DNA from: Armatimonadetes bacterium Uphvl-Ar2
GTDB lineage: Bacteria > Armatimonadota > Fimbriimonadia > Fimbriimonadales > Fimbriimonadaceae
Assembly (NCBI GenBank): GCA_002162095.1
Contig: CP021424.1
Span: 2,480,001-2,544,000 of the forward strand
Direction of reading: 5' to 3'
DNA length: 64,000 nt
Part shown: in pieces, positions 11,183 through 14,992 of the stretch
Layout: every line of letters begins with the position of its first letter
How positions within the stretch are numbered: position 1 is the stretch's first letter
The notes under the pieces: model-generated
Databases searched by the model: none
The model's input: the letters and a program-made list of their open reading frames with translations, nothing else
Told to the model about the DNA's origin: nothing
Position numbers and translations under genes: made by a program

Positions 11183-11878
11183 ATGACTCGCCGCGAATTT
11201 GACGAACAGATTGATGAAATCCGTGCCTTAGTGCTGCGGATGGCGGACTGTGTCGTCGAAATGCTGGAGCTGGGTGTGCGGTGCGCCATGGAAGGGGAAG
11301 AAAGCCTCTACCAACGCGTGAAGTCGCTGGACGACGTGATTGACGAGAGCGAGAAGCTCGCGGTCGGCATTGCCGTGGACTGCTTGCTGAAGCAAGCGCC
11401 AGTGGCCAACGACCTTCGTTTGCTAACGAGCACTCTGAGCATCATCGGGGAGTTAGAAAAGGCTGGGGACGACGCCGAGAAGATGGCGAGCCGCGCCCGG
11501 CGGCTTTCCGGGCAGTTCCCGGATGAGCTCAAGTCGGCCTTATACGATCTACAAGCCGAGGCGGCCAAGGTGATTCGGTCGGCCACCGCGCTCTACCTCA
11601 AGTACGACGAGGAAGTAGCGAGCGAGGCTTTGCTGATGGACGACACGGTAGATGCTTCATATAAGGCCGCGCGCCGTCGCTTTATGGAACTCATCGTCGA
11701 GCGGCCGGAATCTGTGCGCGACCTTTTGCGTGGGATCAACACGTTCCACGCCATTGAGCACGCCGCCGACCGAGGGGTCGAGATTGTGAAGCGTCTTCGC
11801 CTGCACCACAACAACTTTGAAGATCGTATGAAGCCCGAGGAGCCGGTAGAAAGCGGCCCGACGGAAGCCACCCCTTAA
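11183..11878 (+). CDS. phoU: PhoU-family phosphate/transport regulator
   Basis: 231 residues, all helical, with two PhoU repeats (about 10-100 and 115-205). They contain conserved acidic/basic motifs including LDDVIDESEKLAVG, ANDLRLLTSTLSIIGELEKAGDDAEKMA and INTFHAIEHAADRGVEI. PhoU is a cytosolic metal-binding protein that links the PstSCAB phosphate transporter to the PhoR kinase, or dampens other transport. No pst genes or response regulator are adjacent; a PhoR-like kinase lies 35 kb away. Its ribosome binding site is inside a strong hairpin directly upstream. Confidence 0.88.
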   Translation: MTRREFDEQIDEIRALVLRMADCVVEMLELGVRCAMEGEESLYQRVKSLDDVIDESEKLAVGIAVDCLLKQAPVANDLRLLTSTLSIIGELEKAGDDAEKMASRARRLSGQFPDELKSALYDLQAEAAKVIRSATALYLKYDEEVASEALLMDDTVDASYKAARRRFMELIVERPESVRDLLRGINTFHAIEHAADRGVEIVKRLRLHHNNFEDRMKPEEPVESGPTEATP

Positions 11879-11983: not shown

Positions 11984-14900
11984 ATGTCAAACCAAGGCTC
12001 TCACCCGACCGACAAGACCGATTTGAGCTCGAATGTGCCGAACTCAGATTGGGCCAAGTACGGCAAAGTCAGCCAAGAGTGGATGCTAGCCAAGAGCCCG
12101 GAAGAATTGAAGGAAGCAGCATTCCGGTGGAGCTTGAGCGCGGATGCGCATGTGCGAACCCTGGGCCGATCCCTTTTGAGCGCCATTGAAGCCGAAGGCG
12201 GGGAAGCTCAGCGACAGATTCGAGATTGCTTGCCTTGGACCGTGGCCCTGAGTCACCGCTTGGTGCCCGTGAGTCTCCACGAGCCGTTTGTGGTGGTGCT
12301 GCACGCCGGTGAGGTGACCGTGGAGGCGCTGAACCTGGTGATGGCCTATGCCAAGCGCCCGGTGCAATGGGTGCATGGCACCGACGCTGAGGTGGCCCGC
12401 GAGCTTCTGAGCTGCTACGGCAGCGAGATCCCGACTTCCTTACTTGAACGTTTTGTGAACGACCCGGCCGTGGCCTGGTCGGGGAACCCGAATCCGGTGC
12501 TCATGGTGCCGGAGGCGGCATCAGCCCCTGTGGCCGATGAGCCGGAGATTGAAGAGGTCTTCGAAGAAGCTCCTGAAGCTGAAAATGAGTCGAATTGGTC
12601 CGGTTTGCCGGATGGAGATGACCTCGATGCCCCGGCGACAGTTGCTGCGACCGAGTTTCCGGTCGAAGTTCTTCGCGACCTGCGGGCCGTGCCGATGGGT
12701 GAAGACGAATCGGGCATTGAATTCCTGGTGGCGAGCCCCGCCGAAAATGAGACTCTTCGGGCCTTGAGCGAACTCAGCCAAGGGGCGGCGCGGTTCCGGA
12801 TTGCCGATTTTGAAGAGGTGGCCGCGGCCTGGACGGCCCGCTACGGCGATGAACTTTCGCCGCTCTTCCTCGCCCCGAATCAAGTGACCTCTGCGGAGGC
12901 TTTTGGCGATGAAGTGACCGAGGCACCGATCGTTGCCGAGGAAATCTTGGTCATCGAAGAGTCCTTCATTGAAGAGATCACAATTGAAGAAGTCGCCGAA
13001 AGTGAATCTGTAGAGACCGAAATTGCCGAGAATCTGACCCCCTGGCAGATCGCCGAATCGCGAACACCGGAAGATGGCCTCGACTCGGTTGAATTGGAAG
13101 CCTTGGTATCGCAATACGAAGTTTCCACGGTTGTCGAAGAAGAAACGGCCCCGGTGATTGCGGTCAGCGAAGATGATGCCGAAGCCGATTGGGACAGCCT
13201 GCTGGCCGAAGCGGAAGAGGAAAGCCTTACCGCTGAAGAAGAAAATTCCGTGCCGGAGGTCACTTTTGACCCCTTGGCGTGGGCCAAGTGTGTTGAGAAG
13301 GCCGAAGTGCCGCCCACTGCTGAACCGGAGGTCGAAGCTCCGGCAGCAGAAATCGCTGAGGAAGTGCCTGCGGTGGCCGAGGTCGCCAGTTTTGAACCGG
13401 TTGAACCTCATGTCGATGCCGTGAATCTGGTGCCGGCGAGCCTGGCGTGGTTTGCCCGGGCCTGCCCGATGGAACTGCGGGGCGAAGAACTTGTTTGCTG
13501 GGCAATGGAGCCCTTTGATGAGTCTCTGCTGACCGCGATTGAACGGCGGGCCGAGCGACGACTGATCGTAGAACCGCGCCCGCAGGAAGAGGTTTTGGCT
13601 GCCCTCCAGGCCGCCTATCCGACAGATTTCGCTGGCGTTGCCGCTCCGGTGGCAGAAGTAGCCGCGGCTCCCGTGGCTGCCCCCGTGATTGAGACCGCTG
13701 AACCTGACCTGGCGGCAGATTTGAGTGCGGAAGTCGAGTCCGCGTTGGCCGAGCCCGTGGAGACCAGTGACTGGGATCAACCGGCTGCCATTGCCGAACC
13801 GGAAGCTGACGTCGCCGACGAATGGGCGACCGACGAAGACGCAGCGCCCGAGGCCGAATGGGAAGCCGCCGAAGATAGCCGCGAGTGCATCCCGATGCCC
13901 CCGCCGCTGTCGCTGGATGACTTCAAAGTCGCGCTGAAGGACCAGGTGGAAATCGCGCCGGTCGCAGCGACCCCCGAGGAAACGTCGGCACCGACGCCGG
14001 AACCCAAACCGACGCCAACTCAGAATACGGGTAGCCCCGCTTTGGATGACTTGCTGGCTCGGATTGGCATCGCCCGGGGCGATGTGAGTGCCCCGCCGGT
14101 CGCCGCTCCGGTAGTTGATCCGGTGGCCGAAGCTTTTGCCCAAGTGACAGAGCTTGAGCCGGAGGCAGAAAGCGAGGTGGCCGAGGTCGCGATTCCTGAG
14201 CCCTCCGTAGTTCCGGAACCGCCGCAGGCCGAAGACTTCGCTACCCCGGTTGAAGAAACTCCCGCGCTGACGCCGGCTGAAGCTGAAGTCGTTTCGTTCG
14301 ATAGTGCTCCCGTTGCGCCTCCGGCGGAGAAAACGGAAGATGGGTTCACGCTCAGTGCGACGGGAGAAGCCCGCGCGGCGTGGCTGGAGTTCATGAGCGG
14401 CGAGAATCAGCCGACGGCACAGCCGCGTAGCGACACGACGCCGATCATGATCGAGCAGATGCTGGACCGGATGAATCGAGAAATCGAGGTCGAGCGAGCC
14501 GCCGCGAGGGCGATTCCTTCGGCGGACTTTAAGGAAGAGGATGACGATGGCCGCGCCAGTAGCGACGCCGGCTTCTTGACTGAGGAAGAAGCGGAAGAGA
14601 GTCGCATTGCCCTGGAGCATGCGTCCGCGATTCAGCGCCTGATGGGCCAATCTCTGGTGCCCAAGCCCGAAATCCTCGCTCGATTCAGCCGTGACACGGC
14701 AATCCGACTGCGAACCCTGCCGGTGACGATTGAAGGGGGCACCCTGCATGTAATGGGGGCGTCCGCGCTGAGCGAAGAGTCGGTGCAGATGCTCTCGGAT
14801 GAGTCTGGTTTGCCGATCCAGCTTCACCTCGCCCCGGCGGATCACCTCCAGCGCATGCTGGACAAGGCGTATCCGGACCCGGATCGCGATCTGGAGCAGC

Positions 14901-14992
14901 ACACGAAGGTGGCCGAGCTGCGCCGCCAGCAAGAAATGGACGATAAGGGCTGGCTGAGCAAGCTGATGAACCGCGTCAATCGCGGTGCCTAA
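11984..14992 (+). CDS. Acidic protein with four degenerate MshEN/GspE-N-like modules
   Basis: 1002 residues, very rich in Glu, Ala, Pro and Val, with no signal peptide or membrane helix. Four segments of 60-80 residues follow the MshEN pattern (hydrophobic-P start, L-x-V-x strand, helix, strand, helix ending in YG/YP): about 86-146, 226-300, 480-547 (LVPASLAWFARACPMELRGE) and 885-965 (LVPKPEILARFSRDTAIRL). Long acidic linkers join them. MshEN domains normally precede the ATPase of type II secretion/type IV pilus motors and may bind c-di-GMP, but there is no ATPase here. A role in pilus or secretion regulation is inferred. ATG at 11984 is used. Confidence 0.7.
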   Translation: MSNQGSHPTDKTDLSSNVPNSDWAKYGKVSQEWMLAKSPEELKEAAFRWSLSADAHVRTLGRSLLSAIEAEGGEAQRQIRDCLPWTVALSHRLVPVSLHEPFVVVLHAGEVTVEALNLVMAYAKRPVQWVHGTDAEVARELLSCYGSEIPTSLLERFVNDPAVAWSGNPNPVLMVPEAASAPVADEPEIEEVFEEAPEAENESNWSGLPDGDDLDAPATVAATEFPVEVLRDLRAVPMGEDESGIEFLVASPAENETLRALSELSQGAARFRIADFEEVAAAWTARYGDELSPLFLAPNQVTSAEAFGDEVTEAPIVAEEILVIEESFIEEITIEEVAESESVETEIAENLTPWQIAESRTPEDGLDSVELEALVSQYEVSTVVEEETAPVIAVSEDDAEADWDSLLAEAEEESLTAEEENSVPEVTFDPLAWAKCVEKAEVPPTAEPEVEAPAAEIAEEVPAVAEVASFEPVEPHVDAVNLVPASLAWFARACPMELRGEELVCWAMEPFDESLLTAIERRAERRLIVEPRPQEEVLAALQAAYPTDFAGVAAPVAEVAAAPVAAPVIETAEPDLAADLSAEVESALAEPVETSDWDQPAAIAEPEADVADEWATDEDAAPEAEWEAAEDSRECIPMPPPLSLDDFKVALKDQVEIAPVAATPEETSAPTPEPKPTPTQNTGSPALDDLLARIGIARGDVSAPPVAAPVVDPVAEAFAQVTELEPEAESEVAEVAIPEPSVVPEPPQAEDFATPVEETPALTPAEAEVVSFDSAPVAPPAEKTEDGFTLSATGEARAAWLEFMSGENQPTAQPRSDTTPIMIEQMLDRMNREIEVERAAARAIPSADFKEEDDDGRASSDAGFLTEEEAEESRIALEHASAIQRLMGQSLVPKPEILARFSRDTAIRLRTLPVTIEGGTLHVMGASALSEESVQMLSDESGLPIQLHLAPADHLQRMLDKAYPDPDRDLEQHTKVAELRRQQEMDDKGWLSKLMNRVNRGA

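Follow-up and report, generated by a model that had tools for sequence, protein, structure and literature searches.

An acidic protein with four MshEN_C modules and no motor domain, found in one small genus of Armatimonadota, as a possible membrane-tethered docking scaffold

MshEN-type docking domains normally stand in front of the motors of pili and of protein secretion, and the C-terminal half of the domain, MshEN_C or ND1, is usually taken to belong to a motor or a c-di-GMP receptor. The helical half, MshEN_N, holds the c-di-GMP site with its tandem RLGxx(L/V/I)(L/V/I)xxG..L..L..Q motifs, and the nucleotide-binding residues of MshE are residues 1-62 (PMC5013675). ND1 (also N1E) binds a PilM-type cytoplasmic domain in the GspE-GspL and EpsE-EpsL crystals, and in PilB, for instance that of X. 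citri, a flexible acidic linker carries ND1 (PMC8389850, PMC6882859). Several domains of the family can occur in one chain: Thermus thermophilus PilF has, ahead of its ATPase, three full GSPII domains, and two of these bind c-di-GMP (PMC11731258). In flagellar systems, FlhG binds the N-terminus of FliM or FliY (PMC12826062, PMC12327844), FliM carries an EIDAL motif (PMC6946799), and the polar landmarks HubP and FimV act as flagellar landmark scaffolds (PMC12826062).

The protein described here is encoded in the window, a 64,000-nucleotide stretch of the genome of Armatimonadetes bacterium Uphvl-Ar2 (Fimbriimonadaceae), by an open reading frame (ORF) that runs from ATG to stop. It is acidic, as the initial annotation had stated (pI 4.07, net charge about -147 at pH 7), and its sole Pfam family above threshold is PF05157 (MshEN; E=9.7e-25, three stretches); neither an ATPase domain, whose absence had also been claimed, nor any other Pfam domain reaches threshold in the 1002 residues, and a sequence search of the full protein against the PDB gave no match. 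Its four modules belong to the same family as ND1 of GspE/EpsE and PilB, with the same fold predicted for module 1, and its acidic flexible linkers resemble that of X. citri PilB; unlike GspE and PilB, however, it has no N2 (ND2) and ATPase domains above the Pfam threshold, strings four ND1 copies on one chain and ends in an amphipathic tail. It shares with PilF the presence of several MshEN-family domains per chain, but has C-halves only and no ATPase. Any likeness to HubP and FimV would lie in role only, the comparison having been made through Pfam, which found no such domain. The parts of the protein are as follows.

11984-14992 (+): acidic multi-MshEN_C protein, whole ORF, 1002 residues; PF05157 matches, orthologues in two congeneric genomes
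12041-12229 (+): N-terminal helical region 5' of module 1, residues 20-82; helices in AlphaFold2 (AF2) models, no RLG motifs
12230-12427 (+): MshEN_C module 1, residues 83-148, divergent; local HMM, profile-profile comparison, AF2 fold, PDB structure match
12641-12859 (+): MshEN_C module 2, residues 220-292; Pfam 33.4 bits, local HMM, whole-protein model, profile-profile comparison
12860-13402 (+): acidic linker, residues 293-473, predicted mostly disordered, with one degenerate EIDAL-like motif; composition, AF2 model
13091-13111 (+): that motif, ELEALVS, residues 370-376; motif scan
13403-13627 (+): MshEN_C module 3, residues 474-548; Pfam 25.6 bits, local HMM, whole-protein model, profile-profile comparison; groups with FlhG-partner MshEN domains
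13628-14344 (+): Ala/Glu/Pro-rich linker, residues 549-787, predicted mostly disordered, with a conserved LDxLL at about residue 687; composition, AF2 model
14345-14650 (+): conserved helical stretch, residues 788-889, with an EARxAWxEF motif in 3/3 orthologues; orthologue comparison, AF2 model
14657-14884 (+): MshEN_C module 4, residues 892-967; Pfam 45.1 bits, local HMM, profile-profile comparison; AF2 confidence low
14891-14989 (+): C-terminal helix ending in the amphipathic basic tail GWLSKLMNRVNRGA; hydrophobic moment, AF2 helix, conservation in the genus

All four segments are modules of the PF05157/MshEN family, modules 2-4 as judged from Pfam and module 1 from profile-profile comparison and its predicted fold, and each is only the C-terminal alpha/beta half of the domain. 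The initial annotation had recognized four MshEN-like segments with limits close to the refined ones listed above, and that count stands; what has changed is that each holds only the MshEN_C half. Scored singly against PF05157, as had been proposed, segments 2, 3 and 4 pass the curated cut-off of 23.1 bits, and segment 1 falls below it. A local MshEN_C HMM whose seed lacked segment 1 detects this segment in each of the three orthologues, always at the same position (iE 0.011, 0.051 and 3.1e-5); segments 2-4 were in that seed, so their scores with it are inflated. A profile of segment 1, made from the three-sequence alignment, matches MshEN domains of non-scaffold proteins with a profile-profile probability of 95.6%, against 0.1-0.5% for twenty column-shuffled alignments of the same segment, and the values for segments 2, 3 and 4 against MshEN domains of other proteins are 94.9, 99.2 and 98.4%.

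An AF2 model of residues 16-165, built from three sequences, has a pLDDT of about 80 over segment 1 and predicts the element order helix-strand-strand-helix-strand-helix (a-b-b-a-b-a). Its top PDB matches are all N-domains of GspE, PilB or MshE, the best being 2bh1 chain X, the EpsE N-domain (ND1) solved in complex with EpsL (Z 8.9, rmsd 2.1 over 67 of 68 residues), and unrelated folds begin only at Z 5.9. The whole-protein model, likewise built from three sequences (mean pLDDT 45.5), shows the same element order for each of the four segments, with segment 4 the weakest (pLDDT about 35-50, despite the best Pfam score), and the elements it predicts for segments 2-4 are those of MshEN_C. Segment 3 has the expected order, but the structural matches listed for it are of KH-like and not MshEN type, and the MshEN assignment of segments 2-4 therefore rests on sequence. 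A whole-protein Foldseek search returned nothing below E 0.001, with pilus and GspE N-domains at the top of its list. Structure prediction thus bears out the MshEN fold for segment 1 and goes only part of the way for the others; segments 3 and 4, on whose fold the initial annotation had made its reading depend, mostly uphold it through their shared family, the model of segment 4 being of low confidence.

The family name and the helices ahead of module 1 might suggest a multivalent c-di-GMP receptor, and the initial annotation had noted that MshEN domains can bind this nucleotide. For the present protein this finds no support: both the strict and the relaxed 24-residue c-di-GMP motifs (PMC5013675) are absent from it and from both orthologues, and its best partial match, at 8 of 11 positions, does no better than shuffled sequence (mean 8.5), in a scan that recovered both motifs in two MshEN-kinase proteins of family f5 of the order. 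The structural match of module 1 covers MshE residues 75-145, that is MshEN_C, outside the nucleotide-binding residues 1-62. Residues 20-82 were considered as an MshEN_N ahead of module 1 and rejected, as they hold no RLG motif; in the segment 1 model the MshE and PilB chains listed align over their C-halves only and helical proteins of unrelated kinds match the N-terminal helices, although this does not prove MshEN_N absent. Because the helical half bearing the RLG...Q motifs is missing, c-di-GMP binding in the known mode is not supported by the sequence, and with MshEN_C halves only, when the binding site belongs to MshEN_N (PMC5013675), we consider a receptor role very unlikely.

Full-length orthologues occur in both other genomes of the genus (3/3 in total), at 70% and 36% identity. 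Between the two closest genomes the modules are 79-100% identical and the linkers 48-62%; dN/dS is 0.02-0.06 for modules 1-3 and 0.21-0.28 for the two computable linkers, and module 4 has no replacement at all (region limits in this calculation are offset by two residues from the module limits given above). These values point to strong purifying selection on the modules. The low complexity of the linkers and an 835-residue ORF on the opposite strand might be taken to mean that the ORF is spurious, decaying or an antisense-frame artefact, but the antisense ORF has no Pfam match and the orthologues stay open at such identities with their modules so constrained; that explanation is disfavoured, to the point of being almost certainly wrong, and the ORF is a real protein restricted to one small genus. 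With a three-row profile, no full-length relative was found outside the genus among 113 genomes of the order or 291 sampled genomes of the phylum. A PF05157 census of 61 genomes of the family, confined to strong matches, listed mostly ORFs of PilB length, and no ATPase-less protein with several MshEN_C domains was found in the literature searched, most subscription papers being outside its reach. The layout thus appears to be undescribed, as first proposed, and is a variant on a known kind of domain, not a new kind of system.

The search of other Armatimonadota and of the gene's neighbours that the initial annotation had suggested leads, within the genomes sampled, only to these three, in all of which the same gene lies upstream.

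11183-11878 (+): PhoU-domain gene, upstream neighbour kept in 3/3 genomes of the genus; PF01895

The neighbours in the window are phoU, a gene for a sortilin-type protein and a MutL-like gene, with no pil, gsp, fli or MinD/FlhG gene beside the ORF, and the stretch between phoU and the ORF yielded neither a promoter-like nor a terminator-like site, a result of little weight. The phoU locus was considered as an ancestral site and rejected, since no MshEN gene adjoins the PhoU orthologues of six other genera.

The linkers are acidic and flexible, and that of residues 549-787 is rich in Ala, Glu and Pro, as the initial annotation had seen. The degenerate EIDAL-like motif (ELEALVS or DLEALVS) is present in two of the three orthologues and absent from that of genome G002. 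EARxAWxEF (14345-14413) is invariant in the three orthologues and was not seen in the other loci scanned, and we regard it as a candidate short binding motif. The C-terminal tail (hydrophobic moment 0.63, net charge +3, helix pLDDT 74-85) is largely conserved within the genus; it resembles a membrane-targeting helix and would bind the membrane.

Acidic proteins with MshEN_C domains are found elsewhere in the family. Many Fimbriimonadaceae encode an acidic protein with a single MshEN_C at its C-terminus directly next to a MinD-family ATPase, and such a two-gene module is present in the genome of the window itself.

L037:8999-11259, C1 about 545000-547300 (-): two-gene module, acidic MshEN_C protein and MinD/FlhG-like ATPase, own genome
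L025:8470-9915 and L037:9826-11250: example partner proteins
L028:3756-4952, L029:12901-14139, L032:9763-10926, L068:5270-6433 and L074:6252-7415: MshEN_C-MinD/FlhG-like fusions
L030:9560-10906 and L031:2095-3420: MshEN-kinase proteins of family f5, the kinase-like domain shown by Pfam for L030

The two-gene module also occurs at L025, L061-L067, L070, L072 and L073; the MinD/FlhG-like ATPase of genome G001 is L072:4604-5425. A motif LSxxEIxALL is present in one to five copies in 13 of 14 partners, with about none expected in local shuffles, a contrast that is descriptive only since the regular expression was drawn from these partners and FliM; FliM of five genomes of the family starts ILSQxEIEALL. 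The nearest PDB chains to the neighbouring ATPase are FleN (E 9.5e-42) and FlhG (E 4.6e-36), but we call it MinD/FlhG-like because the FlhG enhancer motif DQAxxLR, of the N-terminal helix that activates FlhF, is absent from the MinD-like ORFs and no FlhF rose above the cut-off in the genomes searched of the window protein's family (f1). FlhF is above the cut-off only in G025, G027, G029 and G031 (four of 21 genomes), three of which have no strong match to the MinD/FlhG-like ATPase, and the two may tend to replace each other. In the fusions, MshEN_C occupies the N-terminus of the ATPase, the place of the enhancer helix in canonical FlhG. Family f5, which belongs to the same order, has beside the MinD/FlhG-like gene an MshEN-kinase protein that retains both c-di-GMP motifs. 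In the genome of the window, the MinD/FlhG-like gene (L037:8999-9856, - strand) and fliM (C1:1971952-1972517) are split by apparent frameshifts, which look like assembly indels rather than pseudogenes, both genes being open in congeners.

These partners share with the window protein an acidic layout, a C-terminal MshEN_C and then, in most of them, an amphipathic basic tail; the tail is absent from the FlhG partner of its own genus. The partners carry LSxxEIxALL motifs and adjoin the ATPase, whereas the window protein has four modules, the strict motif in none of its three orthologues, and a gene that neither adjoins nor is fused to a MinD/FlhG-like ATPase. Direct membership of the FlhG-partner group was rejected for lack of an ATPase neighbour and a motif array. 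In a tree of 86 MshEN_C columns, PilB domains form their own clade with the window modules outside; the four modules do not form one clade. Module 3 is placed inside the FlhG-partner clade, though only modestly supported (81/83), modules 2 and 4 join a protein of genome G015 that has two MshEN_C domains (80/78), and module 1 forms a long branch whose position is uncertain. The G015 protein (L026:8883-10067) likewise combines more than one MshEN_C on acidic linkers with an amphipathic tail, and has neither an ATPase domain nor a detected MinD-like neighbour; at less than half the size, with other gene neighbours and similarity confined to the modules, it is a possible smaller analogue. It also carries an LDALL motif. 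Because layout and tail are common to both, but the strict motif and the ATPase neighbour are missing, the window protein is probably related to, yet distinct from, the single-MshEN_C partners, and the nearest relatives found point to a MinD/FlhG-like system at least as much as to a pilus motor.

We tentatively propose, with somewhat less than even confidence in the reading as a whole, that the protein is a motor-less, membrane-tethered docking scaffold related to the MinD/FlhG-partner family, which would help to position or gate the machinery of pili or flagella. It would lie in the cytoplasm, anchored to the membrane through its C-terminal amphipathic helix, with four ND1-type docking modules spaced by acidic disordered linkers; the modules may bind PilM/GspL-like platform proteins or, alternatively, the MinD/FlhG-like ATPase found together with MshEN_C in this family, and the scaffold would bring together or fill several of these sites simultaneously and do no mechanical work. 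That it organises pilus or flagellar machinery is probable, as is its relation to the acidic partners. The layout shared with those partners, the constraint on the modules and the tail are consistent with this proposal, as are the PilM/GspL docking by ND1 and its acidic-linker tether in PilB (PMC8389850, PMC6882859) and the fold match to EpsE ND1 from the EpsL complex, the last being suggestive only; the genome of the window encodes four PilB-type ATPases, with a PilM-like gene, L035 ORF 4849-5991, near one of them as judged from ORF reading only. Against the proposal are the position of the gene beside phoU and away from pil, gsp, fli or MinD/FlhG genes, the missing FlhG-type motif array, the modest support for the placement of module 3 and the scatter of the four modules in the tree.

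Two narrower explanations fix the partner, and on present evidence the PilM/GspL-like and MinD/FlhG-like hypotheses are about equally likely. The modules might bind PilM/GspL specifically and, as decoys, compete with the ND1 of PilB or GspE, tuning pilus extension or secretion, much as the initial annotation had suggested for a multivalent binder that may regulate or compete with such motors: the documented ND1 dock (PMC8389850, PMC6882859), the predicted fold of module 1 and the four PilB-type ATPases would all fit, but the separate PilB clade and the lack of pil linkage speak against it, and we hold it unlikely. No more probable in our estimate is that the protein is a second, diverged partner of the MinD/FlhG-like ATPase, with a role in the number or placement of flagella. 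MshEN_C adjoins or is fused to that ATPase across the family, module 3 falls in the partner clade, the protein has the amphipathic tail that is missing from the genus's own FlhG partner, flagellar FliM is present and two of three orthologues keep the degenerate motif; the gene, however, has no adjoining ATPase, and the strict motif is missing from all three orthologues, as is the degenerate one from G002. A bolder extension of the scaffold proposal, which we consider rather doubtful, is that a flagellated and piliated lineage reuses the PilM/GspL dock as a free scaffold, multi-copy and membrane-tethered, and that single copies are paired with the MinD/FlhG-like ATPase via FliM-mimicking motifs, which would couple the placement of pili and flagella.

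A conserved protein that has four docking domains but lacks any recognisable enzyme domain suggests that this half of MshEN can serve as a scaffold part in its own right. For PF05157 matches in general, RLG motifs should be checked before a protein is called a c-di-GMP receptor. Part of the interest lies in the wider MinD/FlhG-linked family that the window protein has exposed, whose two-gene module is possibly more interesting than the window protein itself. Together with the single-copy partners, the protein offers a testable connection between docking modules of pilus type and flagellar positioning, in a phylum little studied for such biology.
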